DNA of 64,000 bases from Minwuia sp. (GTDB taxonomy: Bacteria; Pseudomonadota; Alphaproteobacteria; Minwuiales; Minwuiaceae), in the NCBI GenBank assembly GCA_029213165.1, contig JARGNO010000002.1, positions 86,604 through 150,603 of the forward strand, in the 5' to 3' direction. Shown here one piece after another: positions 8,577 to 56,398 of this stretch (position 1 is the first letter of the stretch; every line of letters begins with the position of its first letter). Position numbers and translations under genes: made by a program. The notes under the pieces were generated by a model, which saw only the letters and a program-made list of their open reading frames with translations, ran no database searches and was not told the DNA's origin.

Positions 8577-9082
8577 CACCGCTGTCCTGCCGGTACCCCC
8601 TGCGCGCGGTTTGGAGGGACTACCTGAGGGCCGTGATCGGCCTCACAACATTCGGCGCACCGGCATTGTTTGTCGAAGTTTCTTCTGTCATGTTCTGGCT
8701 GCTCGGGGGGCTCGCACTGCTTTTTGCGGCTTTCGGGATCAGGACGGCGATACGGCATTCCAGCCGTATCGTGGTGGACGGGGTGGGCATAAGATTCACC
8801 GGTCCTCTTCATCGTTCTGTTACCTGGAGTGGGTTAGGGGAAGTGCGGATAAGATATTATTCGACCTGGCGGGACCGCTCGGCAGGTTGGATGCAACTGG
8901 TCATCAAGGGGGGCGGCACGACAATCCGCGTTGACCAGACGCTGGACGGTTTCAAGGCACTTGCCGATACCGTCTGCCACGGGGCCTTGGCCAACGGGGC
9001 GCGTCTGGATGGCGTTACACGGCACAATGCCGGGGCAATCGGGCTGGACCTTCCGACCGAATCGGGAGACGAACAAGCATGA
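8573..9082 (+). CDS. hypothetical membrane protein with PH-like C-terminal domain
   Basis: The 169-residue protein starts in an ATGA overlap with the preceding glycosyltransferase and ends in an ATGA overlap with the ABC ATPase. It has two adjacent hydrophobic segments (about residues 20-60), then a beta-rich stretch (RIVVDGVGIRFTGPL, then WMQLVIKGGGTTIRV) resembling bacterial PH domains of small membrane proteins. I do not recognise a named family. The coupling on both sides means it is expressed with the glycosyltransferase and transporter genes, but a function is not evident. Confidence 0.6.
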   Translation: MTPLSCRYPLRAVWRDYLRAVIGLTTFGAPALFVEVSSVMFWLLGGLALLFAAFGIRTAIRHSSRIVVDGVGIRFTGPLHRSVTWSGLGEVRIRYYSTWRDRSAGWMQLVIKGGGTTIRVDQTLDGFKALADTVCHGALANGARLDGVTRHNAGAIGLDLPTESGDEQA

Positions 9083-10977
9083 GCACGAACGTATTGCGCG
9101 TTCGCGATCTCAAGGTCGAATTCCATGTGCCCGAGGGCGTGGTCAAGGCTGTCGATGGCGTTTCATTCCGCGTTCCCGAGGGCAAGACCGTTGCCCTGGT
9201 CGGCGAATCCGGCTCTGGCAAGACCGTGATCTCGCAGGCCATCATGGGAATCCTGCCGAAGGCAGCACAGATCAATCAGGGCGAGATCCTGCTGTTCGAC
9301 ACGCAGAAGCGCGGCAGTTTCGTCGACATCACCAAGCTGAAACGCGACGGGCCGGAGATGCGCGGCATCCGCGGCAACCGCATTTCCATCGTGTTTCAGG
9401 AACCCATGACCAGCCTGTCGCCCCTGCACACCATCGGTGATCAGGTGTCAGAGGCACTGCGTGTCCACGGACGCTCCAACATCAAGCAGGGCCTGGAGAT
9501 TTCGGAGGAGATGCTGCGCCTCGTCGGTTTTCCGAACCCGAAGAAGGCCCTGACCACCTATCCGTTCGAACTGTCCGGCGGCCTGCGCCAGCGCGCGGTC
9601 ATTGCCATGGCACTTGTCTGCCGCCCTGCCCTGCTGATCGCCGACGAACCGACAACCGCGCTGGATGTGACCATCCAGGCCCAGATCCTCAAACTGATGA
9701 ACGATCTCCAGAAGGAACTGGGGATGGCCATCCTGATGATCACCCATGATCTGGGCGTGGTCGCCAACATGGCTGACGAGATCGTCGTCATGTACCATGG
9801 ACGGGTGATGGAACGCGGCACGCTGACCGACCTGTTTGCCGCACCGAAGCACCCCTATCTGCAGGCCCTGCTGCGTGCCGTGCCACGCTTCGACATGGAA
9901 GTGGGGGAGCGACTGGTTCCGATCCGCGAGATCAAGGCGGAACTGGATGGCGCACTGCTGCAACCACGCAAGCCCTGGCCGGAGAATGCACCGGACGCCG
10001 CGAAGCCGCTGCTGGAAATCCGCAGCCTTACCAAGAGCTACGGCACCCGCAAGACCGGCATCCTGTCCGGCAAGGACGCGGGCCGCGTGCTGGCGGTGGA
10101 TGATGTGTCATTCCACATCAATCGCGGCGAATGCCTTGGACTCGTTGGTGAATCCGGCTGCGGCAAGACCACCACATCGAAGGTGATCATGCGCGCCCTG
10201 GGGCCGGACAGCGGCGATGTGCTGTTCAACGACAGCGGTACCCAGGTCGATGTCCTGAAACTGCGCGGCAAGAAGCTGTTCGACTATCGCCGCAAGGTCC
10301 AGTTCATGTTCCAGGACCCCTTCAGTTCCCTGAACCCGCGCATGACGGTCTTCGATATCATTTCGGAGCCGCTGGTGATCCACAAGGTGGCGACCAAGGA
10401 AGAGCGGGTGGAGCGTGTGAAGGAACTGATGTCGCTGGTCGGGCTGGATGTGCGTTTCCTGCGCCGCTATCCGCACAGTTTCTCCGGCGGCCAGCGCCAG
10501 CGTATCGGCATTGCCCGCGCCCTGGCCCTGCAACCGGAACTGCTGATCTGTGACGAGCCGGTCTCGGCACTGGATGTTTCCATTCAGGCGCAGGTGCTGA
10601 ACCTGCTGAAGGACCTGAAGGAAAAGATGGGCCTGACCTACCTTTTCGTGTCCCACAACCTTGCGGTCATCGACTACATGGCCGACCGCATCGCCGTCAT
10701 GTGTCGTGGCCGGCTGGTGGAGACCGCCCCGCGGGAGGAACTGTTCCGCAATCCGGTACATCCCTACACCCGCGCGCTGCTGAAGGCGGTGCCCAAGCCC
10801 GATCCGTCCGACAGGCTGGACCTGACGGCGCTGATGGAAGGCAAGGCATCGATCCCGGAGGAATGGCCTGCGCCATTCACCGTCGATGGCCATACGGAGA
10901 TGGCATTGCTGGACCTCGGGGCGGAGCATTTCGTGAGGGCCGCGGCCTCCACCGACAGGAAGGAGCTTGCGGCATGA
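9079..10977 (+). CDS. fused two-domain ABC ATPase of a peptide/nickel-type importer
   Basis: A DppD-DppF-type fusion (632 residues) that powers a family-5 importer. The first half has Walker A GESGSGKT (about 42-49), signature LSGGLRQR, Walker [14 protein letters not shown] and an HPY element ([13 protein letters not shown]). The second half repeats the set: [30 protein letters not shown] and [13 protein letters not shown]. Both nucleotide-binding domains look catalytically complete. It precedes its binding protein and two permeases, linked by an ATGA overlap to the binding-protein gene. The architecture is that of YejF/GsiA-like ATPases; the substrate is probably an oligopeptide but could be another small solute. 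Confidence 0.92.
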
Positions 10978-12902
10978 GGTTCCGTCTTCCGGCAACCCTG
11001 ATCGCAGCGGCGCTGGGCATTGGGCTTGCGACCGGCGTTTCGGCGCAAGGACTGATCGAGACACCCCTGCTCGAAGATGCCGTCAAGGCAGGCGAACTAC
11101 CGCCGATACAGGAGCGTATTCCCGACGAGCCTCTGATTGTCAGTTTCGCGACCAGCGATGGTGCACCGGGCATCCATGGTGGCGACATCAACATGCTGAT
11201 CCCGCGTGAGCGCTATCTGCGTCACATGGTGGTCTACAGCTACGCCCGACTGGTTGGATACAACGAGGAATACGAGCTCGAACCCGATCTGGTCCGTGAT
11301 CTTGAGGTCGTCGAGGGGCGGAGCTTCACGTTCCACCTGCGGCGCGGTCACAAATGGTCCGACGGCGCCCCCTTCACAGCCGACGATTTCCGCTACTGGT
11401 GGGAAGACGTGGTGCTGAACGAGGAGCTCAATCCCGGCGGCATCCCGTCCTACATGCTGGTCGATGGCGCTCCGCCGGTCGTCGAGTTCCCCGACGACCA
11501 TACGGTCCGCTACACCTGGCCAAAGCCGAACCCCTATTTCCTGCCGCGCATCGCCGGTGCGTCGCCGTTGTTCATCTATCGTCCGGCACATTACCTGCGC
11601 AGGTTTCACGTCAGATATGCCGACCCGGAAAAGCTGGCCAAGGCCGTGGAGGACAGCCGGCGGCCAAGCTGGGCGTCGCTGCACAATCGCCGCGACCGCA
11701 TGTACCGGTTCGACAATATCAATCAGCCGACCCTGCAGCCCTGGAAGAATTCGACCACGGACAAGTCGTCCGGTCGCTATGTCGGACTGCGCAACCCGTT
11801 CTACCACAAGATCGACGAGAACGGCCGTCAGTTGCCCTATGTCGACCGCTTCATCCTGACCGTTGCAGCGCCCGCCCTGATCGCTGCGCAGGCCGGATCG
11901 GGCCAGACCGATCTGCAGGCGCTGGGTCTGGCGCTGACCGACTGGACCTTCCTGAAACAGGCGGAGGATCGCGGCAACTATGACACCCTGGCCTGGCGGC
12001 AGGCGATGGGCGCAACCGTCGCCCTGTTTCCCAACCTGAACTATGACGATCCGGTCTATCGCGATCTGTTCCGTGATGTCCGGTTCAGGCGCGCGCTTTC
12101 CCTGGCCATCGACCGCGAACTGATCAACGAGGTTGTCTATTTCGGCGATGCCCGATCTGCCAGCAATCTGGTGCTGGACCGCAGTTCGCTGTTCAAGCCG
12201 GAGTATGCAGGGGACTGGACCCGCTATGACAAGAAGGCCGCGCGGAAACTGCTGGACGAGATCGGCCTGACGAAGAAGGGCCCGGGAGGCATCCGCCTGC
12301 TGCCGGATGGCCGCAAGCTGGAGATCATCGTCGAGACCTCGGGCGAGGACCCGCAACAGACCGATATCCTGGAACTGATCGAGGAAACCTGGCGCGAAGT
12401 CGGCGTGAAGATGTTCATCAAGCCGTCACAGCGCGACACCTTCCGCAACCGGGTCTATGCCGGTCTGGCGCAGATCTCGGTCTGGACAGGTATCCAGGCC
12501 GGTCTGGCAACACCTGACACCAGCCCCGAAGAGCTGGCTCCCACCAGCCAACTGGGTCTGCAGTGGCCGAAATGGGGCCTGTACCACGAGTCCGGCGGTA
12601 CCATGGGTGAAGCGCCTGACATGGAAATTCCGGCGAAACTGGTAAGGCTGGTGGAGCAATGGGACCTGGCGTCGGAGCGGGCCGAGAAGAAGCGTATCTG
12701 GGACGAGATCCTGGAGATCAATGCCGAACAGATCTATTCGATCGGCATCGTCTCCTCCGTCCCGCAGCCGATTGTCGTGCGCCGCGGATTACGCAACGTT
12801 CCGCGCGAAGGCATCTATCACTGGGATCCCGGCGCGTATTTCGGGCTCTATCGTCCTGACAGCTTCTGGTACGACACGCCAGAACTGCGCAACAGGTCCT
12901 GA
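10974..12902 (+). CDS. periplasmic solute-binding protein, family 5 (peptide/nickel type)
   Basis: Start at 10974 in the ATGA overlap with the ATPase gene, giving a clean signal peptide ([20 protein letters not shown], cleavage near VSAQG) and 642 residues, on the long side for the family and similar to YejA-type proteins. The SBP_bac_5 signature region is visible as LEPDLVRDLEVVEGRSFTFH, then HKWSDGAPFTADDFRYWWED. RFRRALSLAIDRELI is the second conserved block. It captures the ligand for the two permeases encoded next. The frame is open 91 codons upstream, but that part overlaps the ATPase and is not protein-like. Confidence 0.92.
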   Translation: MRFRLPATLIAAALGIGLATGVSAQGLIETPLLEDAVKAGELPPIQERIPDEPLIVSFATSDGAPGIHGGDINMLIPRERYLRHMVVYSYARLVGYNEEYELEPDLVRDLEVVEGRSFTFHLRRGHKWSDGAPFTADDFRYWWEDVVLNEELNPGGIPSYMLVDGAPPVVEFPDDHTVRYTWPKPNPYFLPRIAGASPLFIYRPAHYLRRFHVRYADPEKLAKAVEDSRRPSWASLHNRRDRMYRFDNINQPTLQPWKNSTTDKSSGRYVGLRNPFYHKIDENGRQLPYVDRFILTVAAPALIAAQAGSGQTDLQALGLALTDWTFLKQAEDRGNYDTLAWRQAMGATVALFPNLNYDDPVYRDLFRDVRFRRALSLAIDRELINEVVYFGDARSASNLVLDRSSLFKPEYAGDWTRYDKKAARKLLDEIGLTKKGPGGIRLLPDGRKLEIIVETSGEDPQQTDILELIEETWREVGVKMFIKPSQRDTFRNRVYAGLAQISVWTGIQAGLATPDTSPEELAPTSQLGLQWPKWGLYHESGGTMGEAPDMEIPAKLVRLVEQWDLASERAEKKRIWDEILEINAEQIYSIGIVSSVPQPIVVRRGLRNVPREGIYHWDPGAYFGLYRPDSFWYDTPELRNRS

Positions 12903-12925
12903 CCGTCGGAGAGATGTGAAAGCGG

Positions 12926-13951
12926 ATGTTCACCTACATCATTCATCGCCTGCTGATCATGATCCCGACGCTGATCGCGATTTCCGTGATCACGTTCCTG
13001 ATCATCCAGCTTCCGGAAGGCGACTATCTGTCGAACCTTGTCCAGGAACTGCAGGCCCAGGGCGAGGCTGCGGCGCTGGAGAAGGTCGAGTTCCTGCGCA
13101 AGCAGTATGGCCTCGATCAACCGGAAATCATCCAGTACGGCATGTGGATGGGCTTCTGGCCCGGCCCCACCGGTTTCAACGGGCTGCTGCAGGGCAACTG
13201 GGGCTGGGCGTTCGAACAGGACATGCCCGTCTCTGACGTCGTCGGCGACCGGGTGCTGCTGTCCTGCATCCTGAACTTCACCACCATCTTCTTCATCTAC
13301 CTGGTGTCATTCCCCATCGGCGTCTATTCGGCGACACGGCAGTACTCCATCGGTGACTACGGCTTCACCTTCCTGGGCTACCTCGGCCTGGCAACACCGA
13401 ATTTCCTGCTGGCTCTGATCATGATGTATTTCGCCAACCTGTGGTTCGGCGTTTCCATCGGTGGCCTGATGGACCCCGAGTACCTGGGGCAGGACTGGTC
13501 ATGGGGCAAGGCGGTTTCCGTCTTCGCGCATCTGGTGGCGCCGGTCATCGTCATCGGCACTTCCGGCACCGCAGGCATGATCCGCAGGCTGCGCGCCAAC
13601 CTGCTGGACGAACTGCAGCGCCAGTATGTCGTGACCGCCCGCGCCAAGGGTGTGCCGCGTGGCAAGCTGATCATGAAGTATCCGGTGCGCATGGCGCTGA
13701 ACCCCTTCATCGCGGACATCGGCAACCTGCTGCCGTCCATCGTTTCCGGCTCGGCCATCGTCGCGGTGGTCATGCAGTTGCCGACCCTCGGCCCGATCCT
13801 GCTGCAGGCGTTGCAGAGCCAGGATCAGTACCTTGCCGGATCGATCCTGATGTTCCTGGCGTTCCTGACCGTCGTCGGCATGCTGATCTCAGATCTGCTG
13901 CTGGCTGCGCTTGATCCCCGAATTCGGCTTGGCGGAGGTGTCGCGAAATGA
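12926..13951 (+). CDS. ABC transporter permease, DppB/YejB type
   Basis: Inner-membrane permease of the family-5 importer (341 residues). The N-terminus MFTYIIHRLLIMIPTLIAIS is the characteristic first helix of DppB-like subunits, followed by a periplasmic loop and five further helices. The EAA-like coupling motif is the cytoplasmic stretch VVTARAKGVPRGKLIMKYPV. It begins 23 bp after the binding-protein stop and ends in an ATGA overlap with the second permease. It forms a heterodimer with the next gene product. Confidence 0.92.
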   Translation: MFTYIIHRLLIMIPTLIAISVITFLIIQLPEGDYLSNLVQELQAQGEAAALEKVEFLRKQYGLDQPEIIQYGMWMGFWPGPTGFNGLLQGNWGWAFEQDMPVSDVVGDRVLLSCILNFTTIFFIYLVSFPIGVYSATRQYSIGDYGFTFLGYLGLATPNFLLALIMMYFANLWFGVSIGGLMDPEYLGQDWSWGKAVSVFAHLVAPVIVIGTSGTAGMIRRLRANLLDELQRQYVVTARAKGVPRGKLIMKYPVRMALNPFIADIGNLLPSIVSGSAIVAVVMQLPTLGPILLQALQSQDQYLAGSILMFLAFLTVVGMLISDLLLAALDPRIRLGGGVAK

Positions 13952-15123
13952 GTGTCACCGATCAGGACGAGAAGCAGCAGCTGGATCACTGGGTCGATGA
14001 CCGTCCCTTCGATCCCCAGTCACGCGAGACCCTGACGCCGGAGCAGGAGAAATTCTATCTGGCGTCCCAGTGGCAACTGATGTGGTGGAAGTTCAAGCGC
14101 CACAAGGTCGCCGTTGTCGCCGGGGTGATCCTCGCCATCTTCTACCTCTCGGTGGTGATCAGCGAGATGGTCGCCCCCTATGACCTGCATACCCGCGACG
14201 CCAAGCATATCCTGGCCCCGCCGCAGTCCATCAACCTGTTCCACGAGGGCGAGTTCGTCGGCCCCTTCGTTTATGGCTACACGCTGACCAAGGATCAGGT
14301 CATGCGGCAGCGCATCTATACGGAGGACCCGACACAGGTGCAGCCGCTGCGGTTCTTCTGCTTCGGCGACGAGTATGAATATCTCGGCCTGATAGAGGGC
14401 AGTTTCCATTTCGTCTGCCCGGCTGAGGGGGGAACGTTCTTCCTGTTCGGGACGGACAGGCTGGGGCGCGACATCTTCAGTCGCATTGTCTATGGCGCGC
14501 GCATTTCGCTGACCGTCGGCCTGATCGGCATCACGCTGTCGTTCATCATGGGACTCGTGATGGGTGGACTGGCCGGTTACTACGGCGGCTGGGTCGACAA
14601 CATCATCATGCGCATCATCGAGATGATCCGCAGCTTCCCGGAACTGCCCCTCTGGATGGCCCTTTCCGCGGCCCTGCCCGCCAACTGGTCGCCCTTGCTG
14701 ATCTACTTCGGTATCACCGTCATACTGGCCCTGTTCGACTGGCCGTCGCTGGCACGCGCCGTGCGCTCCAAACTGCTGGCGCTGCGGGAAGAGGACTTCA
14801 CTGTTGCCGCGCAGCTGATGGGGGCGAGTCCGACGCGCATCATCGGCCGCCACCTGCTGCCGAGCTTCATGAGCCATCTGATCGCCTCCGCGTCCCTCTC
14901 GATCCCGGCCATGATCCTGGGCGAGACGGCCCTTTCGTTCCTCGGAATCGGCTTGAGACCGCCGATAACGTCCTGGGGCGTGTTGCTGAACGAGGCGCAG
15001 AACCTGAATGCCGTCGTGCTGACACCCTGGCTGCTCTGGCCCATGGTGCCGGTCATCATCGTGGTGCTGGCATTCAACTTCCTGGGTGATGGATTGCGTG
15101 ACGCGGCAGATCCCTACAAGTAG
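13948..15123 (+). CDS. ABC transporter permease, DppC/YejE type
   Basis: Second permease (391 residues), coupled to the first by ATGA. It has the DppC-type N-terminal cytoplasmic tail, a first helix at about residues 50-72 (VAVVAGVILAIFYLSVVISE), a long periplasmic loop, and the conserved LFGTDRLGRDIFSRIVYGAR block followed by five helices. The coupling loop is FTVAAQLMGASPTRIIGRH. The periplasmic insert between helices 1 and 2 is long, as in YejE-like members, which fits the fused ATPase and long binding protein. asnB starts 27 bp downstream. Confidence 0.92.
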   Translation: MSVTDQDEKQQLDHWVDDRPFDPQSRETLTPEQEKFYLASQWQLMWWKFKRHKVAVVAGVILAIFYLSVVISEMVAPYDLHTRDAKHILAPPQSINLFHEGEFVGPFVYGYTLTKDQVMRQRIYTEDPTQVQPLRFFCFGDEYEYLGLIEGSFHFVCPAEGGTFFLFGTDRLGRDIFSRIVYGARISLTVGLIGITLSFIMGLVMGGLAGYYGGWVDNIIMRIIEMIRSFPELPLWMALSAALPANWSPLLIYFGITVILALFDWPSLARAVRSKLLALREEDFTVAAQLMGASPTRIIGRHLLPSFMSHLIASASLSIPAMILGETALSFLGIGLRPPITSWGVLLNEAQNLNAVVLTPWLLWPMVPVIIVVLAFNFLGDGLRDAADPYK

Positions 15124-15150
15124 ACAACGCGAAACAGGACCGCTTGGCTG

Positions 15151-17049
15151 ATGTGCGGCATAGCGGGCTGGATCACTGCGACAGACGGCGGCCCGCGCGA
15201 AAGCGTGTTGCACACCATGACCGACCGGATTGCCCATCGTGGTCCGGATGGTGAGGGACACCTGTTCTGTCCCACCCGCGACCGGCGGCATCAGGCCGGC
15301 CTCGGCCACCGGCGCCGGGCGACCATCGATCTGACCACCGGCGACCAGCCGATGCACTACACCGCGCCGGATGGCCGTCGCCTCTCCATGGTCTTCAATG
15401 GTGAGGTCTACAACTACGTCACCCTGCGGGAGGAACTGAAGGCCGTCGGCTACCGGTTCCAGACCACATCAGACTCAGAGGTCGTGCTGGCCGCCCACGC
15501 CCATTGGGGACCTGATGCGGTCAGCCATCTTCGCGGCATGTTCGCCCATATGGTCTGGGAGCATGAGGCGGAGCGGCTGACGGTTGCCCGTGACCGCTTT
15601 GGCAAGAAGCCGGTCTTCATGCTGCGGCAGGGCGAAAGCACCTTCTTCGCCTCCGAGATCAAGGCGCTGCTGGCGGTTCCCGGATACACCCCGAAGCTGA
15701 ATACAGGTGTCATCCCGTCCTATCTGAACTACCGCTATGTGCCGGGACCGGACACCTTCTTCGATGGCATCGAGAAGCTTCCTCCCGCCTCCGTTGCCGT
15801 CTGGCAGGATGGATCGCTGAAGGTCAGTCGGTACTGGTCACCGCCTGATGGCTCGGCCCAGACACCGCTGGAGGCGGAAGATCCGGTCAGCGCCTTCATG
15901 GACGTGTTGCAGGAATCCGTCAGTCTGCGCATGGCCTCGGATGTGCCTTTCGGTGCCTTTCTGTCCGGTGGCATAGACTCCTCCGCGATCGTCGCGCTGA
16001 TGGCGGAACAGAGTGACCTGCCTGTCCGCACCTTCTCGGTCGGTTTCAGGGAAGGCGCATACAGCGAACTGCGCTATGCCCGCGACATCGCCGAACAGTT
16101 CTCAACCAGCCATCACGAGCTGGAGGTCTCCGCCGATACCCTGATGGACCACCTGCCGAACCTCATCGGCTACCGCGATGCGCCCGTGGCTGAACCGTCC
16201 GACATCCCGATCTACCTGCTGTCGGTGGAAGCGTCCCGGACCGTGAAGATGGTGCTGACCGGTGAAGGCTCCGACGAGATCATCGCCGGCTATCCGAAAC
16301 ATCGCTTCGAACGCTATGCCAGTCGCTATCACGCGCTGATGCCCGGCGTATTGCACCGGTCCCTGATGCGGCCGCTGGTGAGCGCCCTGCCCTATTCCTT
16401 CCGCCGGGTGAAGACCCTGTTCGACAGTCTGGACCAGCGCGCCATCGAGGACCGTTTTCCGCGCTGGTTCGGTGCATTGCGGCCGGACGCCACCGCGCGT
16501 CTGCTGGCGGGTCCGGCCGCATATGACCTGACCCCCAGGGCTGCCGACAGTTTCCCGTTCGAAACGGCACCAGGCACCAGCGCCCTTCGCCGCCTGCAGT
16601 ACTTCGACCAGACATCGTGGCTGCCCGACAACCTGCTGGAACGGGGCGACCGCATGACCATGGCCGGCTCCATCGAGGGGCGAATGCCCTTCATGGATCA
16701 TGAACTGGCCAGCCTGGTCGCCCGCCTGCCAGACGATTGCCGCATCCGGGGTGGGGAGGACAAGTGGCTGCTGCGTCAGGGCATGAAGCGCATTCTGCCC
16801 ACGGAGATCCTGGAGCGCCCGAAGGTCGGCTTTCGCGTCCCCGTGAACGACTGGTTCCAGACCTCCATGCGGGATTGGGTTCACGATCATCTGACCGGCA
16901 AGGATTCGCTCAGTCGTGATCTCTATGACCGTGGCGAGCTGGAACGCATGTTGGGGGAGCACAACAGGGGCCGCCAGAACCACGAGAAACTGATCTGGAC
17001 CCTGGTTTCGCTGGAGCTCTTCCTGCGCCGGTTCGGCCTGACGGTCTGA
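15151..17049 (+). CDS. asnB: asparagine synthase (glutamine-hydrolysing), AsnB family
   Basis: The 632-residue protein begins MCGIAGW, so Cys2 becomes the N-terminal nucleophile of the class-II glutaminase domain; FNGEVYNYVTLREEL and SDSEVVLAAH follow. The synthetase domain has the pyrophosphate loop LSGGIDSS (about 270-277), TGEGSDEIIAGY and SIEGRMPFMDHEL. It makes amides from glutamine and ATP; aspartate is the classic acceptor, but many family members amidate peptides or sugar acids. It lies 27 bp after a peptide-importer permease gene and before a DUF1194 gene, an unusual neighbourhood for primary asparagine synthesis. Confidence 0.9.
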   Translation: MCGIAGWITATDGGPRESVLHTMTDRIAHRGPDGEGHLFCPTRDRRHQAGLGHRRRATIDLTTGDQPMHYTAPDGRRLSMVFNGEVYNYVTLREELKAVGYRFQTTSDSEVVLAAHAHWGPDAVSHLRGMFAHMVWEHEAERLTVARDRFGKKPVFMLRQGESTFFASEIKALLAVPGYTPKLNTGVIPSYLNYRYVPGPDTFFDGIEKLPPASVAVWQDGSLKVSRYWSPPDGSAQTPLEAEDPVSAFMDVLQESVSLRMASDVPFGAFLSGGIDSSAIVALMAEQSDLPVRTFSVGFREGAYSELRYARDIAEQFSTSHHELEVSADTLMDHLPNLIGYRDAPVAEPSDIPIYLLSVEASRTVKMVLTGEGSDEIIAGYPKHRFERYASRYHALMPGVLHRSLMRPLVSALPYSFRRVKTLFDSLDQRAIEDRFPRWFGALRPDATARLLAGPAAYDLTPRAADSFPFETAPGTSALRRLQYFDQTSWLPDNLLERGDRMTMAGSIEGRMPFMDHELASLVARLPDDCRIRGGEDKWLLRQGMKRILPTEILERPKVGFRVPVNDWFQTSMRDWVHDHLTGKDSLSRDLYDRGELERMLGEHNRGRQNHEKLIWTLVSLELFLRRFGLTV

Positions 17050-17102
17050 CACACAGAATCAGCTTTACCCCACTTGCCCGTCAGGGCGACACTCACGGCA
17101 TC

Positions 17103-17849
17103 ATGCGCTTCCCTCCCGTCCTGTTTCTCGTGCTCGCGGTTCTGTTGAGCGCGCCTGTTCTCTTCAGCCGACCGGCGGAAGCCCAACTGGACCGGCGGAT
17201 CGATCTGGCCCTGGTTCTGGCGGTGGATACCTCCACCAGTGTCGACAATGCCGAGTTCAGACTGCAGATGCTCGGGCTGGCCAATGCGTTTCGCCATGAG
17301 TCCGTGCGTCAGGCCATGCGCAGTGGCGCACCGCTCGGGATGGCGGTCACACTGATGCAGTGGTCCGGCCACGGGGAGCAGGCACAGGTCATCCCCTGGA
17401 CCTTGCTGCGCCGGGATCAGGACATAGAGGCGCTGGCCCAAAGGATCGCGGACACGAAACGGCTGGTCAAAGGGGGACGGACGGCGCTGGGCGAGGCGGT
17501 GATCGAAGCCCTGAAGCTGTTTGACAGCCTCGATTTCGACGTGCGCAGACGGGTGATCGATGTATCGGGCGACGGCGGCAGCAATGACGGCATCCTGCCA
17601 CGGGAAGCGCGGGAGATCGCGCGTGCCGCCTATGTCACGGTGAATGGCGTGGCCATCCTGAACGAGGAACCGCGGCTGGATGTCTACTACCGGTCAGACC
17701 TGATCGTTGGACCGGGGTCGTTCCTGATCACCGCCACCAACTATGTTGACTTCGCCCGCGCCATCCGCCTGAAACTGGTACGGGAGATCATCGGCAACCC
17801 GATGGCCATGCTGGAAGCCGACACCGACAGGGAGCGTGTATTGCAATGA
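17103..17849 (+). CDS. DUF1194 secreted von Willebrand factor A-like protein
   Basis: The 248-residue product has a signal peptide (about 1-28, ending near AEA), then LALVLAVDTSTSVD, the DxSxS beginning of a MIDAS metal site, and an alternating alpha/beta pattern to VIDVSGDGGSNDG, all of which match DUF1194. The family has no established biochemical role; vWA domains usually mediate metal-dependent protein binding, here in the periplasm. The stop overlaps the start of the molybdenum hydroxylase (ATGA), so the two are translationally coupled. A second DUF1194 gene is present at 55.7 kb with different partners. Confidence 0.85.
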   Translation: MRFPPVLFLVLAVLLSAPVLFSRPAEAQLDRRIDLALVLAVDTSTSVDNAEFRLQMLGLANAFRHESVRQAMRSGAPLGMAVTLMQWSGHGEQAQVIPWTLLRRDQDIEALAQRIADTKRLVKGGRTALGEAVIEALKLFDSLDFDVRRRVIDVSGDGGSNDGILPREAREIARAAYVTVNGVAILNEEPRLDVYYRSDLIVGPGSFLITATNYVDFARAIRLKLVREIIGNPMAMLEADTDRERVLQ

Positions 17850-20131
17850 CGAAGATGCTCGATGGAATCGGTGCCGGCACCACCCGGCGCGAAGACAGCC
17901 GCTTTGTCCGGGGGGCGGGCCGCTACACCGATGACCTGGCGACGGCGGACGATCTGTTCGGCCTGTTCGTGCGCGCTGAAGTGGCCCACGGACGTATCCT
18001 GTCCGCCGCGCTGGATGAGGCGCGCGCTGTGCCCGGGGTCGTTGCCATCCTGACCGGGGAGGATGCGGCGGCGGACGGGCTCGGCACCCTGACGACCACG
18101 GCACCGGTGACCAACCGCGACGGCACCAGCATGGTGGAGGCCCATCGTCCGATCCTGCCGCAGACCCATGTGCATCACGTCGGCCAGCCGCTGGCGCTGA
18201 TCGTGGCGGAAAGCATGGCGGCGGCGCGCGATGCCGCTGATCTGGTCTGGTTCGATATCGAGGATCTGGGCGCGGTCATCGAGGCAGGAACGGAGTCGCC
18301 TGTCCTGCACGACGTGGCCCCGGACAACATGATCTTCGACTGGGGTACCGGCGACGCGGATGCCACTGCCGCGGCCATTGCTGCCGCGCCGCATACGGTC
18401 TCCCTCCGGTTGCGGACACAGCGCATCTGTGGCGCGGCGCTGGAGGGGCGCGTCGTCGTGGCACGACCGGACCCCGCGAACGACCGGATCGAACTGACCA
18501 GTGCCAGTCAGGGCGTGCATCTGCTGCACTTCCAGATCTGCCGCAATGCCCTGCACTGGCCGAAGGAAAAGCTGCGTGTCGTCACCCACGACGTCGGCGG
18601 CGGCTTTGGCCCCAAGTTCTTCGCCTATCCCGAACAGGCAGCAATTGTCTGGGCGGCGTCGAAGCTGCAGCGGCCCGTGCGCTGGACCTCCTCCCGCACC
18701 GAGAGTTTCGTGTCGGAAACCCATGCGCGACCGCAGGTGACCCATGCCACGCTGGGGTTCGATGATGACGGCCGGTTCCTGGCGCTGCAGGTCGATGCGC
18801 TGGCCGACCTGGGTGCCTTCCTGTCCACCTTCGGTCCGGGCAATCCGACCGACAGCATGGCCAAGGTCGCAAGCGGCATGTACGCCCTGCCGCACATCGC
18901 CATCCGGTCCCGCGCCTGGTACACCAGCACCGTCCCGATCGACGCCTACCGCGGTGCGGGCAAACCGCCGATGGTGGTGACGCTGGAACGGCTGGTGGAC
19001 AAGGCTGGTCTGGCGCTGGGACTGCCGCCAGAGGAGATCCGGCGGCGCAACCTGGTGCAACCGGACGCCATGCCGTGGCAGACGCCGCTGGGCATGACCT
19101 ATGACGGCGGCGACTATCCGGCAATCCTGGATGCGGCTCTGGAACGGCTCGACTGGCAGGGTTTCGAAGGACGACGGGCGGACAGTGCCGCGCGGGGCCT
19201 GCTGCGCGGGCGTGGCATCGCCTGCAACATGCATCCGGTTGGCGGCGCCACCAGCGAGACCAGCACGGTCACCGTGAATGCAGCAACAGGTCGGATCGAG
19301 GCATGGACAGGGACCCAGTCCACCGGTCAGGGACATGAGACCATCTTCGCGCAGATACTGGCCGACCGGCTTGGCATTGCGGCAAGCGTGATCGATGTCC
19401 GGCAGGGGGACACGGACCGGCTGGTGCGGGGTGGCGGCACCGGTGGCTCATCCTCGACCATCATCTCCGGCGCGACCCTGACGCGGACGGCGGATGAAGT
19501 GATCCGCATCGGTCGCCAGCGTGCCGCAGACCGACTGGAAACGGCCGTCGAGGATATCGAGTTCCTGGAGGGAACCTTTCGTGTCACCGGCACCGACCGG
19601 CAGGTCAGCCTGTTCGACCTGGCAGACGAGGAACCGCTGGCGGCAACGCAGGAATTTGCCGATTCCGTTGCGGCCTTTCCCCACGGCGTCGTCATTGCGG
19701 AAGTGGATATCGATCCCGAGACAGGGCAGGTCCGCCTAGACCGGCTGGGAGCCGTCGACGACGCAGGCACGATCATCAACCCCGTCCTGCTTGCCGGTCA
19801 GTCGCAGGGTGCGCTGGCGCAGGGTGTGGGCGCGATCCTGCTTGAGCACGCGGTCTACGACCCGGACAGCGGCCAGCTGTTGAGCGGTTCGCTGATGGAT
19901 TACTGCATGCCCCGCGCGGATGACCTGCCCGAACTGCACGTGAATTTCCATGAAACCAGATCCGCGACGAACATTCTCGGCGCGCGCGGGATCGGGGAGA
20001 TGGGGGCGAATGGCGCGCCCGCAGCGATCACCAATGCGGTGCATGACGTGCTGCAGCGTCAGGGTATCATGACCGACCTGGATCCGCCCTTTACGCCTGC
20101 ACAGGTATGGCGGGCGCTGCGGTCACGCTGA
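17846..20131 (+). CDS. molybdopterin-binding large subunit of a xanthine dehydrogenase/CoxL-family hydroxylase
   Basis: The 761-residue protein covers the whole large-subunit fold: N-terminal a/b hammerhead (RREDSRFVRGAGRYTDDL), molybdopterin loop VGGGFGPK (about 249-256), AYRGAGK near 366-372 in place of the AYxCSFR of true CO dehydrogenase, and the GIGEMGANG stretch near 714-722 with the expected catalytic Glu. It therefore looks active and resembles the 'form II' group with unassigned substrates. Such enzymes normally need a 2Fe-2S subunit and an FAD subunit; neither gene is adjacent. It is coupled to a DUF1194 gene and followed 37 bp later by GH3. Substrate (aldehyde or N-heterocycle) unknown. 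Confidence 0.88.
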   Translation: MTKMLDGIGAGTTRREDSRFVRGAGRYTDDLATADDLFGLFVRAEVAHGRILSAALDEARAVPGVVAILTGEDAAADGLGTLTTTAPVTNRDGTSMVEAHRPILPQTHVHHVGQPLALIVAESMAAARDAADLVWFDIEDLGAVIEAGTESPVLHDVAPDNMIFDWGTGDADATAAAIAAAPHTVSLRLRTQRICGAALEGRVVVARPDPANDRIELTSASQGVHLLHFQICRNALHWPKEKLRVVTHDVGGGFGPKFFAYPEQAAIVWAASKLQRPVRWTSSRTESFVSETHARPQVTHATLGFDDDGRFLALQVDALADLGAFLSTFGPGNPTDSMAKVASGMYALPHIAIRSRAWYTSTVPIDAYRGAGKPPMVVTLERLVDKAGLALGLPPEEIRRRNLVQPDAMPWQTPLGMTYDGGDYPAILDAALERLDWQGFEGRRADSAARGLLRGRGIACNMHPVGGATSETSTVTVNAATGRIEAWTGTQSTGQGHETIFAQILADRLGIAASVIDVRQGDTDRLVRGGGTGGSSSTIISGATLTRTADEVIRIGRQRAADRLETAVEDIEFLEGTFRVTGTDRQVSLFDLADEEPLAATQEFADSVAAFPHGVVIAEVDIDPETGQVRLDRLGAVDDAGTIINPVLLAGQSQGALAQGVGAILLEHAVYDPDSGQLLSGSLMDYCMPRADDLPELHVNFHETRSATNILGARGIGEMGANGAPAAITNAVHDVLQRQGIMTDLDPPFTPAQVWRALRSR

Positions 20132-20168
20132 GACACATGCCACCCGACCGTCAGAACGGCACCGTCTG

Positions 20169-21692
20169 ATGCCCGATTTCACGGCGCTGCTGAAGCTCTA
20201 TGCCCGCCACCGGCTGAATGTGCTGAAACATCAGGATCCGGTCGAGGCACAGACCCGGCAATTGCTGGTCCTGCTGCGAAAGGCACGAAACACAAGGTTC
20301 GGGCGCGACCATGATTTCGACCGCATCAGGACCGTCGCCGATTTTCAGGAACGGGTACCTGTCCGCGCTTATGAGGATTTCTGGAGGGACTACTGGTCGG
20401 CAGCCTTTCCCGATCTGTCGGGCCAGACGTGGCCGGGCCGTGCGCCCTGGCTTGCCGTCAGCTCCGGCACGACGTCGGGCACCACGAAGTATCTGCCGGT
20501 GACACCCGCGATGATGCGGGCCAACAAGCGGGCCGCCGTCGACGTTGCGGTTCACCACCTGGCCAACCGGCCGGACAGCCGGCCCTTGAGCGGCAAGACC
20601 TTCATGCTGGGTGGATCCACAGCCCTGGTCGATCAGGGACAGGGTGTCCTGAGTGGCGATCTCTCCGGCATCGCGGTCAAGGGGCAGTCAGCCTGGATGC
20701 GGGCCTTTTCCTTCCCGCCGCCCGATCTGGCCCTGCTGGATGACTGGGAAGCGAAACTGGAACGCCTGACCCACCTGTCATTGCAGGAACGGATCAGCAT
20801 GATCACGGGCACGCCGGGCTGGATGCTGATCCTCTTCGAACGCCTGCACGGGCTGACCGGCGGCAAGGCCCCCTTCCCCGATCTGGAACTGGTCGTTCAT
20901 GGCGGCGTCGCCTGGGACCTCTACAGGGAACGCTTCCGCCCGTTTCTGGCACAGACCCGTGCCGAAACGCGGGAGGTCTATCCGGCCAGTGAAGGGTTCA
21001 TCGCGGTCGCTGACCGGGGCGACGGTGAAGGGCTGCGGCTGATCCTGGACAACGGCATCTTCTTCGAATTCATCCCACTGTCCGAATTGGGGGCGCAGAA
21101 CCCGGTCCGCCACTGGATCGGCAATCTGGAAACAGGCACCGACTACGCCATCGTGCTCTCGTCGAATTCCGGCATGTTCGCCTATCTGATCGGCGATACG
21201 GTGCGTTTCGTGGATCATGCGCCGCCGCGTCTGCTGATCACCGGACGCACGTCCTACATGCTTTCAGCCTTCGGTGAGCATCTGATCGGCAGCGAACTGG
21301 ACACCGCGATCAATCGTGCGGCGGACACGGTCGGACTGACGGTCAGGGAGTATACCGTTGGCGCACTGCTGCCAGAGAGCCAGGGCGGCGTCGGACACCA
21401 TCTCTATCTGGTCGAAGCCACCGCGCAACCCGATGCCACGCGCATGGCCCGGTTTGCGGCCACGGTCGACCGCACCCTGCAGGCCATGAACGAGGACTAT
21501 CAGGCGCACCGCATCAACGACGCCGGCATGAACCCGCCCGCGTTCAGGTTCCTGCCATCAGGCACCTTCGATCGCTGGATGGCATCAAACGGAAAGATGG
21601 GTGGCCAGCACAAGGTACCGCGCGTCATCAGCGACCAGAAGCGGTTCACCAAGGTGCTGGCCGAGTTCGAGGCCCTGTCGGCGCAGGACTGA
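20169..21692 (+). CDS. GH3-family acyl-adenylating enzyme
   Basis: A 507-residue GH3-family protein. Recognisable are the N-terminal TRFGRDHDF and VPVRAYEDF blocks, the ATP-binding loop SSGTTSGTTKYLPV (about 97-110), and YPASEGFIA near residue 275, which corresponds to the adenylation motif of plant auxin-conjugating GH3 enzymes. The plant members activate a carboxylic acid with ATP and join it to an amino acid; bacterial members are mostly uncharacterised. It is the last gene of the plus-strand run and ends 12 bp from the convergent monooxygenase gene. A hydroxylase making a carboxylic acid followed by an acid-activating enzyme is a plausible pair, but that is inference. Confidence 0.87.
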   Translation: MPDFTALLKLYARHRLNVLKHQDPVEAQTRQLLVLLRKARNTRFGRDHDFDRIRTVADFQERVPVRAYEDFWRDYWSAAFPDLSGQTWPGRAPWLAVSSGTTSGTTKYLPVTPAMMRANKRAAVDVAVHHLANRPDSRPLSGKTFMLGGSTALVDQGQGVLSGDLSGIAVKGQSAWMRAFSFPPPDLALLDDWEAKLERLTHLSLQERISMITGTPGWMLILFERLHGLTGGKAPFPDLELVVHGGVAWDLYRERFRPFLAQTRAETREVYPASEGFIAVADRGDGEGLRLILDNGIFFEFIPLSELGAQNPVRHWIGNLETGTDYAIVLSSNSGMFAYLIGDTVRFVDHAPPRLLITGRTSYMLSAFGEHLIGSELDTAINRAADTVGLTVREYTVGALLPESQGGVGHHLYLVEATAQPDATRMARFAATVDRTLQAMNEDYQAHRINDAGMNPPAFRFLPSGTFDRWMASNGKMGGQHKVPRVISDQKRFTKVLAEFEALSAQD

Positions 21693-21710
21693 CAGATTCC
21701 GTCGTCAGTC
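21687..21710. terminator. small hairpin between convergent GH3 and monooxygenase genes
   Basis: GACTGAC at 21687-21693 pairs perfectly with GTCAGTC at 21704-21710 around a 10-base loop, spanning both stop codons. There is no T-tract, so it is at best a weak bidirectional terminator. Confidence 0.3.
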
Positions 21711-23639
21711 GGCGCCCGCCCCCCGTCTGGGCTCCATCTCGAAGGCGTCCAGGTCCGCTTCCCGTGTCATGCCGAACAGATCCACATTGCGGAACGGGAA
21801 GTTCACCGTCACCCGACCAAGCCGGTTGCGGTAATAGGTCTGCATTCCGGGATGGGTCCAGACCATGTTCTCGTGCGCTGCCTCCACCTTCGCGTTGTAG
21901 GCATCGTGGACATCCTTGCGCACCGAGACCGCACCAATGTCCTGATCGACCATCCTGGCCATCAGATCCATGATGTAGTTGATCTGCATCTCGATCACGA
22001 ACAGCAGGCTGCCCCCATGGCCCGGCTGGGTATTGGGGCCGTAGAGGATGAAGTAGTTGGGGAAGTCAGGCACCGCCGCCCCCAGGAAGGCCCGCGCGTC
22101 ATCGTCGTCCCAGACATCACGCAGACTGCGCCCCCCACGACCGCGTGCCTCGTAGGTATTGATGAACCGAAGCACATCAAAGCCCGTGGCAATAATCAGC
22201 ACATCGGCCTCACGGCGTTCGCCATCATCCGTCACCAGCGCGTCCGGTGTGATCTCGGTGATGCGCTCCGTCACCAGTTCGACCTTCGGATTGCGCAGCA
22301 TCCGGTACCAGCCGTTGTCCATCAGCATACGCTTGCCGAATGGCGGATAGGACGGAACGACCTTCTCGAACAGGTCCTGACGATCCCCCAGTTCCTCCCG
22401 GATATGACGGGTGAAGAATTTCCTGTGACCTTCGTTGATCGCGTTCAGTGAATGCTCCGCGTCCGGCCAGTCGGGGTCCTTCTGCAACGCAGGATGAACC
22501 CGGTCATTGAAGGTCCAGCCGAGCCTGACCCGATACCAGGCCTGATAGAGCGGAACTTCGCGGATCAGGAACCGCATCGGCTCCGGCACCGGCTTGCGGA
22601 AATGCGGGAATGGTGCGGCCCAGTGGAGGGACCGCTGATAGATCTTCAGTTCGCCGACCTGGTTCTGGATCTCCGGGCAGATCTGCATGGCGCTGGCACC
22701 ATTGCCTATAATCGCCACGCGCTTGTCCGTCAGGTCCAGACCTTCGGGCCAGCGGGAGGTGTGGAAGCTTTCACCCGCAAAACTGTCGATGCCCGGAATC
22801 TCCGGGAATACCGCCGGGTTGAAGATGCCGGAGGCACTGACCACGACGTTGGCGTGCTCCACGTGCTCCTGACCGTCGGCATCGCGGGTCGTCACGCGCC
22901 AGAGCTGGCTGTCTTCCTGCCATTCGGTCGATACCACCTCGGTCTGGAACCGGATATGCGGCGTCAGTTCGAAGTGATCCGCGACATGTTCCATGTAGCT
23001 CTTCAACTCGTCACGCAGCGCGAAATACATCGGCCAGTCCCACATGACGAAGGAGAAGGAATAGAGGTGGTTCGGCGTATCGACGCCTGCGCCGGGATAG
23101 CGGTTCTCCAGCCAGACACCACCGACACTGCTGTTGCGTTCCAGGATCTCGAACGGGATACTGGCAGCCTTCAGATGTACCGCCATGCACATGCCTGACG
23201 CACCGGCTCCGATGACAATGGCGCGGAAACCCTCCGGCACCCTGATCGGCTTGCGCTCGACAGGGCGCTGCCCCAGTTGCGCCCTGGTCATGTCACCATA
23301 TTCCTGCGGCACCGGTTCGCCCATGGAGATGCCGAGCATCCGCACCAGCAGATCCGAATCGGGGTCCGGGATCGCCACAGGCTTTCCGCCCCTACAGTCA
23401 AGGATCGCGGTCAGCGCCGCATCGCGGATTTCCTGCTGCACATCTTCCGGCAGGCCACCGCTGTCATTGTCATCCAGCCCCTGGCCACGGCTCGGATGAT
23501 ACTTCGGCTCCAGCCATCCCAGGTCGCCGGTCATCTGGACCAGCACCATCAGCAAGGTTGGAATATTGGCGACGGCAACGGCGTCTGTCAGCAGACGCCT
23601 GTCCTCCGCAGTCACGGTTGCATCCTTCGTCATGGTCAT
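21705..23639 (-). CDS. Baeyer-Villiger-type flavin monooxygenase with N-terminal extension
   Basis: FAD/NADPH monooxygenase of 644 residues. Dinucleotide fingerprint GAGASG is at about 144-149, preceded by some 135 extra residues, the layout of 4-hydroxyacetophenone monooxygenase rather than cyclohexanone monooxygenase. The Baeyer-Villiger fingerprint FAGESFHTSRWP fits FxGxxxHxxxW, followed by a second Rossmann GNGASA. It probably inserts oxygen into a ketone to make an ester; the substrate is unknown. Two ATGs (23639 and 23633) lie just after GGGGAGGAC; the second has better spacing. A paralogue lies 59 bp upstream on the same strand, so both are probably transcribed from the 25.2-25.4 kb region. 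Confidence 0.88.
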   Translation of the reverse strand: MTMTKDATVTAEDRRLLTDAVAVANIPTLLMVLVQMTGDLGWLEPKYHPSRGQGLDDNDSGGLPEDVQQEIRDAALTAILDCRGGKPVAIPDPDSDLLVRMLGISMGEPVPQEYGDMTRAQLGQRPVERKPIRVPEGFRAIVIGAGASGMCMAVHLKAASIPFEILERNSSVGGVWLENRYPGAGVDTPNHLYSFSFVMWDWPMYFALRDELKSYMEHVADHFELTPHIRFQTEVVSTEWQEDSQLWRVTTRDADGQEHVEHANVVVSASGIFNPAVFPEIPGIDSFAGESFHTSRWPEGLDLTDKRVAIIGNGASAMQICPEIQNQVGELKIYQRSLHWAAPFPHFRKPVPEPMRFLIREVPLYQAWYRVRLGWTFNDRVHPALQKDPDWPDAEHSLNAINEGHRKFFTRHIREELGDRQDLFEKVVPSYPPFGKRMLMDNGWYRMLRNPKVELVTERITEITPDALVTDDGERREADVLIIATGFDVLRFINTYEARGRGGRSLRDVWDDDDARAFLGAAVPDFPNYFILYGPNTQPGHGGSLLFVIEMQINYIMDLMARMVDQDIGAVSVRKDVHDAYNAKVEAAHENMVWTHPGMQTYYRNRLGRVTVNFPFRNVDLFGMTREADLDAFEMEPRRGAGAD

Positions 23640-23698
23640 GTCCTCCCCAGAACAGAGTGACGCCCGGCGTTCACCCTGTACAGGTCACCGGACGCAGA

Positions 23699-25192
23699 TC
23701 AGGCAATCATGAAATCATTCAGGTCCGGCTCTGCCATGTCGCTGCGGAAGTGCTGGAAGTCCCAGGGGTAGAGCGCCGGATTGCCGTTCTTGTCCAGATA
23801 CCAGCTGTTGCAGCCGGTCACCCAGACCGTTCCTGTCATCGCCGCCTTGATCTCGTCATTGAAACGCTGGGTCGCTTCGGGCTTCGGTTCCACCTCTGCC
23901 CCTTCACGCGCCTGAAGCTGCCGGACGAGTTGCATGATGTAGTCGAGTTGCACTTCCGCCACCTGGATGAGCGAGAAGTTCCCGATCGGGCTGTTCGGCC
24001 CGGCCACCATGAAGAAATTCGGGAAGCCCGGCACGGCAACGGAACGATAGGCCTCATTCGCCTCCGCCCAGGCCTCGTCGATCGTCAGGCCATCGCGGCC
24101 CGTCACATTCATCGGACGCATGAAGTCGTGGGCGTGATAGCCGGTGGCCAGCACCAGCACATCCAGTTCGTGCAGACGGCCATCCACGGTGCGGACGCCA
24201 CCGGCCTCCACCCGTTCGATGCCATCGGTGACCAGTTCCGCGTTCGGCTGCTGGATCGCGGGATAGAACTGGTCGGTCATGATCAGGCGCTTGCAGGCGA
24301 CCTTGTAGTCCGGGGTCAGCCTGGCGCGCAGGTCCGGGTCGCTGACGTTCTCCATCAGGTTGTTGACGCAGTTCTCCTCCACCTTCGCCATCTCCTCGCG
24401 GTCACCGATGACTGCGCGGGCAAAGGTATCCACGAAACGCTCCGACAGATGGTTGTACAGGCCGTCCATCTCCTCCGGGTTCTCGCGATAGCGCTGTTTC
24501 AGCGGCTCGGGGATCTCCGGATTCGGCAGGGGCACAACCCACTGCGCGGTACGCTGGAACAGGCTCAGATGTCCGACCTCGCCCACGATTGCGGAGGTCA
24601 CCTGCATGGCGGTGGAGCCGGTGCCGATGATGCCGACCCGCTTCCCCTTCAGGTCAACATCATGGTTCCAGCGCGCCGTGTGGAAACTGTCGCCCGCGAA
24701 GGTGTCCAGTCCTTCGATGTCGGGATACTTCGGATGGTGCAGCACGCCGGTACAGCAGATCACGGCGTCGAAGGTCTCGACGTCACCGCCAATGGTCTCC
24801 AGTTCCCAGCACCCGTCACCGAATGTACTGCGCACGATCTCCGCGTTTGTCCGAATCAACCCGTCGATCTCATGCCGTTCGGCCACGCCCTCGAAATAGC
24901 GTCGGATCTCCGGGCCAGGCGAGAAGCGGCGGCTCCAGTCGGGATTGGGTTCGAAGGTATAGCGATACAGATGAGAGGGCACATCACAGGTCAGGCCCGG
25001 ATAGGTATTGTCGCGCCAGGTGCCCCCCAGCCGATCCGCCTTCTCGAAGATGGTGATATTGCGGACACCGGTCTCCCGCAGTCTGATCGCGGCAAGGATG
25101 CCGGACATGCCGGCACCAATGATCGCAACCCTGAGACTGCGGGAACCGATCTCCACGGCCTGTTCCGTCGAACCTCTGACCGTTTCGTCCAT
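23699..25192 (-). CDS. Baeyer-Villiger-type flavin monooxygenase
   Basis: A 497-residue FAD/NADPH monooxygenase: GAGMSG at about 26-31, GGTWRDNTYPG, the fingerprint FAGDSFHTARW near residues 160-172, and GTGSTA as second nucleotide motif. The length is that of typical FMO/Baeyer-Villiger enzymes without the N-terminal extension of its downstream neighbour. The start ATG has GGGGAGGAG 8-10 bases upstream. Being first in the pair, it may act on the same compound or class as the 644-residue enzyme. The two are clearly divergent paralogues rather than a recent duplication. Confidence 0.88.
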   Translation of the reverse strand: MDETVRGSTEQAVEIGSRSLRVAIIGAGMSGILAAIRLRETGVRNITIFEKADRLGGTWRDNTYPGLTCDVPSHLYRYTFEPNPDWSRRFSPGPEIRRYFEGVAERHEIDGLIRTNAEIVRSTFGDGCWELETIGGDVETFDAVICCTGVLHHPKYPDIEGLDTFAGDSFHTARWNHDVDLKGKRVGIIGTGSTAMQVTSAIVGEVGHLSLFQRTAQWVVPLPNPEIPEPLKQRYRENPEEMDGLYNHLSERFVDTFARAVIGDREEMAKVEENCVNNLMENVSDPDLRARLTPDYKVACKRLIMTDQFYPAIQQPNAELVTDGIERVEAGGVRTVDGRLHELDVLVLATGYHAHDFMRPMNVTGRDGLTIDEAWAEANEAYRSVAVPGFPNFFMVAGPNSPIGNFSLIQVAEVQLDYIMQLVRQLQAREGAEVEPKPEATQRFNDEIKAAMTGTVWVTGCNSWYLDKNGNPALYPWDFQHFRSDMAEPDLNDFMIA

Positions 25193-55682: not shown

Positions 55683-56398
55683 GGAACTCATGCGGATGTG
55701 CCCTGGCTCTCGCCTTGGCGATCATGCTGCTGGCGCTGCCTGCGCACCGCGCCAGGGCACAGGCATCGGTCGACCTGGCGCTTGTGCTCGCAGTCGATGC
55801 CTCGACCTCAGTCAATCGGGAGGAATTTGGCCTGCAACTGGACGGCATCGCGACCGCGCTCCGCCATCCCAGGGTCATTCAGGCGATCCGCAATGGCGCA
55901 GTCGGGGCAATCGCCATCGCCCTGGTGGAGTGGTCCAGCCCGCACCAGACCTGGCTGGCCATCCCCTGGACCCGGATCTCGGATGCTGCATCCGCCGAGC
56001 GGATGGCAGACATGATCAGCCAGACGCCGCGTCTGTTCGCCGACGGCGGTACTGCCATCGGCGCAGCAATCCGCTTCAGCGCCCTGCAGTTCCGGCACCT
56101 GCCCTTTCCGGCAGGGCGGCGCGTCATCGACATTTCAGGTGATGGCAGCAACACCCATCTGCCTGATGTCTCGGCCGAGCGCGACGTAGCTGTGGCGGCG
56201 GGCATAACGATCAACGGTCTGCCAATTCTCAGTCGTGAAGAGGGTATTGAGAATTATTATCAGAGACGTGTAATCGGCGGCAACAGTGCTTTCGTCGAGG
56301 TGGCCGTGGACTACGCTTCCTTCCCATCCGCCATGCTGCGAAAACTGTTGCGGGAAATCAGAAGCGATTCACTTGTGTCTGTGTTAGAGCCTGATTAA
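55679..56398 (+). CDS. DUF1194 secreted von Willebrand factor A-like protein (second copy)
   Basis: The 239-residue protein has a signal peptide ending ARAQA, then LALVLAVDASTSVN (metal-site motif) and RRVIDISGDGSNTHLPD, clear DUF1194 marks shared with the gene at 17.1 kb, though the two are divergent. It begins in an ATGA overlap with the MFS gene and is followed 22 bp later by a DUF2834 gene. No function is established for the family. Confidence 0.85.
   Translation: MRNSCGCALALALAIMLLALPAHRARAQASVDLALVLAVDASTSVNREEFGLQLDGIATALRHPRVIQAIRNGAVGAIAIALVEWSSPHQTWLAIPWTRISDAASAERMADMISQTPRLFADGGTAIGAAIRFSALQFRHLPFPAGRRVIDISGDGSNTHLPDVSAERDVAVAAGITINGLPILSREEGIENYYQRRVIGGNSAFVEVAVDYASFPSAMLRKLLREIRSDSLVSVLEPD

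Follow-up and report, generated by a model that had tools for sequence, protein, structure and literature searches.

A stand-alone molybdenum hydroxylase large subunit of Minwuia and the possible sharing of electron-transfer subunits among Alphaproteobacteria

Genes of the locus and their order in relatives

The window analysed here, a stretch of 64,000 nucleotides from contig C5 of a Minwuia sp. draft genome (4.12 Mb in 120 contigs), contains a co-directional gene run, OppDF-SBP-OppB-OppC-AsnB-DUF1194-L-GH3 (9079-21692), of which the genes for a DUF1194 protein, a molybdenum hydroxylase large subunit (L) and a GH3-family enzyme form the 3' tail:

9079-10977, + strand: OppDF of an oligopeptide-type ABC transporter
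ending at 12902, + strand: solute-binding protein (SBP), between OppDF and OppB
12926-13951, + strand: OppB, assigned from its place and its orthologues only
13948-15123, + strand: OppC
15151-17049, + strand: asparagine synthase (glutamine-hydrolysing), AsnB, upstream of DUF1194
17103-17849, + strand: DUF1194 (vWA-like) protein, 248 aa; PF06707 at 215.3 bits, above cut-off
17846-20131, + strand: molybdenum hydroxylase large subunit L, 761 aa; stand-alone, catalytic, intact
20169-21692, + strand: GH3-family acyl-acid amido synthetase, OlsH-related, 507 aa; GH3 N, middle and C domains above cut-offs

The preliminary description of this DNA reported an intact L with the motifs GGGFGPK, AYRGAGK and GEMGANG, lacking an adjoining small (S, 2Fe-2S) or medium (M, FAD) subunit, coupled to the DUF1194 gene and followed by GH3, and each of these observations was borne out. 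The reading frame is complete and all three motifs are present, AYRGAGK in the active-site loop and GEMGANG with the catalytic glutamate, as are GGGFG, GQG, GTxGS and GE, which we take to be the catalytic-glutamate and cofactor-binding motifs. MoCoBD_1 (235.5 bits), MoCoBD_2 (230.5 bits) and Ald_Xan_dh_C (74 bits), all above Pfam cut-offs, place the protein in the xanthine oxidase family. The first 4 bp of L are also the last 4 bp of the DUF1194 gene, and neither S nor M adjoins L, whether in the window or at the orthologous loci. Inspection by eye of the DUF1194 protein revealed a signal peptide and a MIDAS-like DTSTS. The window genes evolve under purifying selection: dN/dS of L (by YN00, or NG86 where YN00 failed) is 0.04-0.15 against four close relatives, a rough figure with dS near 1, and 0.36 against genome G003 by the cruder method.

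A second DUF1194 gene, 41% identical to the first, is located at 55709-56395 of the window (G000:C5:142312-142998), and the host genome has four DUF1194 genes altogether. Two genes of FMO/Baeyer-Villiger-type monooxygenases, convergent to GH3 (21705-25192, - strand), are conserved in G001 and G002, but the G004 and G005 stretches do not show them.

Gene order was compared among seven genomes of the genus, all of which retain DUF1194, L and GH3. The order DUF1194-L-GH3, with the 4-bp overlap each time, occurs in five (G000, the host, with G001, G002, G004 and G005); in G003 and G006 the orthologues (L 59% and GH3 61% identical) are found at three separate places, DUF1194 still lying 3' of asparagine synthase. 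The neighbours of L in G003 are Mg-chelatase-like, NlpC/P60 and luciferase-like genes, and GH3 there adjoins cobalamin genes and a gene for an AMP-binding enzyme. Two further genera of the family were tested, and both lack orthologues of GH3 and of the window L. GH3 relatives in three genomes from beyond the genus, G015, G037 and G053, have neither L nor DUF1194 adjoining in the stretch examined, which covers only 5.9 kb in G015 and 3.9 kb in G053. The same run appears in records L016 (Minwuia sp.) and L026 (Kordiimonadales bacterium IMCC3096, complete chromosome), which are taken to be genomes G004 and G002 and were left out as duplicates of L179 and L177. Conservation of the three-gene order, on which the preliminary description had made its reading depend, thus holds in part: because the order is kept in five of seven genomes and the genes lie apart elsewhere, it is a trait of part of one genus. 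DUF1194 and GH3 probably accompany L in an operon without being indispensable to it.

The GH3 protein matches the NCBIfam model for OlsH (NF052613) over nearly its whole length and contains the same three nucleotide-binding motifs (SSGTTSGTTK, YPASE and GMFAYLIGD), which together with its three domains identify it as a GH3 acyl-acid amido synthetase, but its score of 560.6 bits is under the curated cut-off of 620. OlsH is described, in the part of the source bearing on it, as a GH3-like lyso-ornithine lipid synthetase with three nucleotide-binding motifs, whose non-planctomycete relatives may act on other amino acids and whose gene in planctomycetes shares an operon with OlsI (PMC12493201). 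Among the neighbouring genes that were scanned, which were a part of the total, there was no OlsI-like alpha/beta-hydrolase. Given the OlsH-like match and motifs, and the possible use of other amino acids outside planctomycetes, the enzyme is likely to be an acyl-amino-acid synthetase. The host genome has a single GH3 gene; in G001 and G002 a second (67%) follows the first in tandem (L176 3599-5116 and L177 15651-17180).

Large subunits without adjoining partners

An L was counted as stand-alone if no S or M was detected within 2.5 kb (tblastn, at least 50 bits) for the earlier set of loci, or anywhere in the stretch examined for the newer ones. At L018, L057 and L072 only S or only M is visible, and in each the contig ends within 0.6 kb on the opposite side; L100 is cut by a contig end. 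The host genome has further L genes lacking adjoining S or M on contigs C108, C114 and C96/C65, the last being one gene apparently split by contig ends, and a complete set, CoxG-S-L-M, on contig C28 (CoxG 137.6 bits, S 118.7 bits). The complete one-contig genome G002 encodes 13 L, eight S and four M; every S and every M there has an adjoining L, and five L genes are left with no private partner. Neighbours of stand-alone L genes vary, and include an EamA transporter, an SDR with a PLP enzyme, CoA transferase III, inositol monophosphatase, and dioxygenases with MmgE/PrpD.

The closest described relatives of the window L are the form II 'CO dehydrogenases' (BMS, CoxSLM-like), which share its three Pfam domains and cofactor motifs at 41-46% identity over the whole length, and whose kind of S and M are the partners proposed for it below. 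We know of no agreed substrate for this group. Whereas form II L genes lie between S and M and their products possess a loop near residue 470, the window L is unlinked, lacks these 13 residues, and has AYRGAGK. The published motifs, as given in the part of the source that treats them, are (A/S)YRCS(F/L)R for form I Mo-Cu CO dehydrogenase and AYRGAGR for form II (PMC13240472). The window L has neither, and neither does it have the S-L-M gene arrangement of form II; the final arginine is replaced by lysine in all seven orthologues, while most other stand-alone L's have AYRGAGR (28 of 41 rows), which suggests that the window orthologues may have a substrate of their own. No NCBIfam equivalog accounts for the protein (best score 483.8 bits against a cut-off of 950). 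Its best full-length sequence matches in the PDB, CoxL of Mo-CODH (8uem) and 6-hydroxypseudooxynicotine dehydrogenase (7dqx), are distant relatives only and presumably belong to three-part L-M-S complexes.

Length of the segment around the missing loop is a marker that agrees with the trees described below: 157 linked rows (of 161) have the full 47 residues there, and 36 stand-alone rows (of 41) have 33-36, a deletion of 11-13 residues in the stand-alone group. The five stand-alone rows with 47 residues are placed within the linked clade or adjacent to it; among the four deviating linked rows, three (34 residues) are near S-M modules and one, cL289, is too partial to count. In trees of hand-chosen subsets (66, 62 and 51 rows), stand-alone L's fall mostly outside the supported clade of S-L-M-linked form II L's; they do not form one strongly supported clade, and the window L is placed outside the S-L-M clade. 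Members of the stand-alone group occur in many families. Linked L's have 274 invariant positions, of which 142 are kept in at least 80% of the stand-alone group and 33 by fewer than 20%, a measure by which fold and interface are not separable. The missing loop might be part of an interface, a point against the docking on S and M proposed below.

Subunit counts and S-M operons without a large subunit

Among 60 genomes, the 37 that have an L are the same 37 that have an S; L outnumbers S in 26 of these, equals it in 11, and is outnumbered in none. Form II-type S genes were collected by a sample search over 240 Alphaproteobacteria genomes, and the resulting census of 104 comprises 92 places from that search (down to E 1.2e-62) and 12 other loci, leaving out G004, G015 C54 and G089 C8 (above the E line) and the lower-scoring rest. 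In this census, whose ranking follows similarity to S from an L-less operon and may favour L-less cases, the gene directly after S is L in 82, M in 21 and neither in one. No L occurs anywhere in the stretch in 14 of the 21 cases of S followed by M. The typical order in these 14 stretches, which represent 11 family codes, is CoxG-S-M-CoxD-CoxE-XdhC or CoxG-S-M-XdhC; CoxG is present in ten and several have CoxD, CoxE and XdhC. Pfam models confirmed CoxG, MoxR-type AAA, CoxE and XdhC wherever L-less operons were scanned. Two of the stretches, L330 and L306, reach only 0.2 and 1.6 kb to one side, and a fifteenth, L350, has S only. Further L queries, including XDH-like and IorB-like ones, matched only the FeS part in the 15 stretches. 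The L-less trait requires at least four, and most simply eight, changes on the tree of S and M.

L genes elsewhere in the genome could be checked for three L-less genomes only. In G037 the sole S and sole M lie side by side in an L-less operon, and its four L genes, three of them in tandem, are located elsewhere and are all loop-less stand-alones. G012 and G057 likewise have an L-less S-M pair and L genes elsewhere, and do not by themselves demonstrate sharing, because one unlinked L in each is a normal looped L that has been relocated; G012 had been considered as direct proof and was set aside since its looped L206 has merely moved. Three stretches (L272, L291 and L318) combine a loop-less L with a nearby S-M module; in L272 and L291 the loop-less L directly precedes CoxG-S-M, giving L-CoxG-S-M, and both are placed outside the S-L-M clade.

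Electron transfer from unlinked large subunits

Standard accounts present molybdenum hydroxylases as fixed S-M-L units. The preliminary description had supposed that electrons from the window L pass to a distant or novel partner, and had recommended a search for unpaired subunits. A distant partner is the most likely outcome for this orphan L, but the expectation of an unpaired one failed: since all eight S and all four M of G002 are already paired with an L, the partner must be shared. A lone S on contig C66 of the host, considered as a private partner, was rejected, as it lies about 0.4 kb from a contig end and the sister genome G002 has every S paired. From the comparison of genomes, several catalytic L's probably share one S-M electron-transfer hub. 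Stand-alone L's of the host would dock in turn on one common S-M pair, the form II set on C28 being the candidate. Each L would oxidise or hydroxylate a small organic substrate in the cytoplasm and hand over two electrons per turnover, which would pass from the Mo centre through the two 2Fe-2S clusters of S and the FAD of M to CoxG and the quinone pool, with CoxG as the putative membrane contact. Gene content, conservation, phylogeny and gene order are what was observed; the physical sharing, the docking, the electron path and the substrate class are inferred. This role of CoxG has been described for form I enzymes in the part of the source concerned (PMC13240472). More broadly, and with a preference only a little better than even, the CoxG-S-M(-CoxD-CoxE-XdhC) operons of Alphaproteobacteria may form a hub-and-spoke system, in which the catalytic gene was lost several times and the remainder became a common electron-transfer and maturation base for exchanged, unlinked, loop-less L's with different substrates. 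Rieske dioxygenases, in which one reductase is common to several oxygenase components, resemble this proposal in having many catalytic and few electron-transfer parts, although the proteins are unrelated and the electrons run in the opposite direction.

A stand-alone L might instead work with no S or M and deliver electrons directly to another acceptor such as a ferredoxin, cytochrome or quinone protein. The lack of adjoining S or M in all seven genomes of the genus agrees with this, as do the 11-13-residue deletion and the poor retention of 33 of the 274 linked-invariant positions; yet S is present in every one of the 37 L-bearing genomes, G037, all of whose L's belong to the loop-less group, still retains one S-M operon, and no acceptor gene is common to the loci, which have transporters, SDR, CoA transferase, dioxygenase and other genes, and we consider the idea quite unlikely. 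That S and M were cut away from L by a recent rearrangement or lost in assembly would fit a draft of 120 contigs, but has almost no probability left. The window L lies well inside its contig, the arrangement recurs in the one-contig G002 and other assemblies of the genus, and the stand-alone group occupies many families. Adjacent S or M genes in relatives, named in the preliminary description as the sign of such an event, were sought and none occurs at orthologous loci, which refutes recent rearrangement; the orphan state of L is real and is not recent. Very improbable, too, is a decaying or non-enzymatic paralogue, for which the unusual AYRGAGK in place of AYRGAGR, common to all seven orthologues, might speak; the cofactor motifs and catalytic glutamate are intact in each, and the dN/dS values given above, the cruder one included, are those of a gene under constraint.

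An oxidation-then-conjugation pathway, in which L makes an acid from an aldehyde or heterocycle, GH3 joins that acid to an amino acid and DUF1194 is coupled to them, was the main proposal of the preliminary description and now appears rather unlikely. It draws on the order and 4-bp overlap in five of seven genomes, the retention of the three genes in all seven, and the absence of GH3 and the L orthologue alike from the two other genera. It is weakened by the three separate places in G003 and G006, by the three outside GH3 relatives with neither L nor DUF1194 adjoining in the stretch examined, and by the quite different neighbours of other stand-alone L's. DUF1194 has a signal peptide and L by inspection has none, so the two are expected in different compartments. 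DUF1194 was also considered as a maturation vWA protein and rejected: Cox maturation involves a vWA protein of another family, CoxE (PF05762), which occurs in the hub operons, and the DUF1194 protein appears to be exported.

No description of S and M shared among stand-alone L's was found in a search of the open-access literature. Genomes with coxL alone or coxSM alone were put down to incomplete genomes in the relevant part of one survey (PMC13240472) and to possible loss of CO oxidation in that of another, which also mentions photic-zone SAR202 genomes with coxS and coxM but no coxL (PMC11245477). The SAR202 genomes could represent the same L-less hub arrangement in another phylum. If sharing occurs, such loci gain a testable alternative meaning, and if the hub-and-spoke arrangement is correct, genomes with coxS and coxM but no coxL would be misread as cases of enzyme loss. 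Were catalytic subunits to swap on a common base, the unlinked L genes of a genome would set its substrate range, and annotation by gene neighbourhood would undercount molybdenum hydroxylases. Strains like G037, with one S-M pair and four L's, would be a simple test case for sharing.

Further stand-alone loci have contents of their own. The L at L195 7006-14565 (G002) is part of a catabolic-looking cluster with TauD-type and 2OG-Fe(II) dioxygenases, MmgE/PrpD, a polysaccharide deacetylase-like gene and a D-2-hydroxyacid dehydrogenase. At L216 4969-12143 (G037 C21), in a stretch with no S or M, the three tandem stand-alone L's are followed downstream by DUF1800 and DUF1501 genes.
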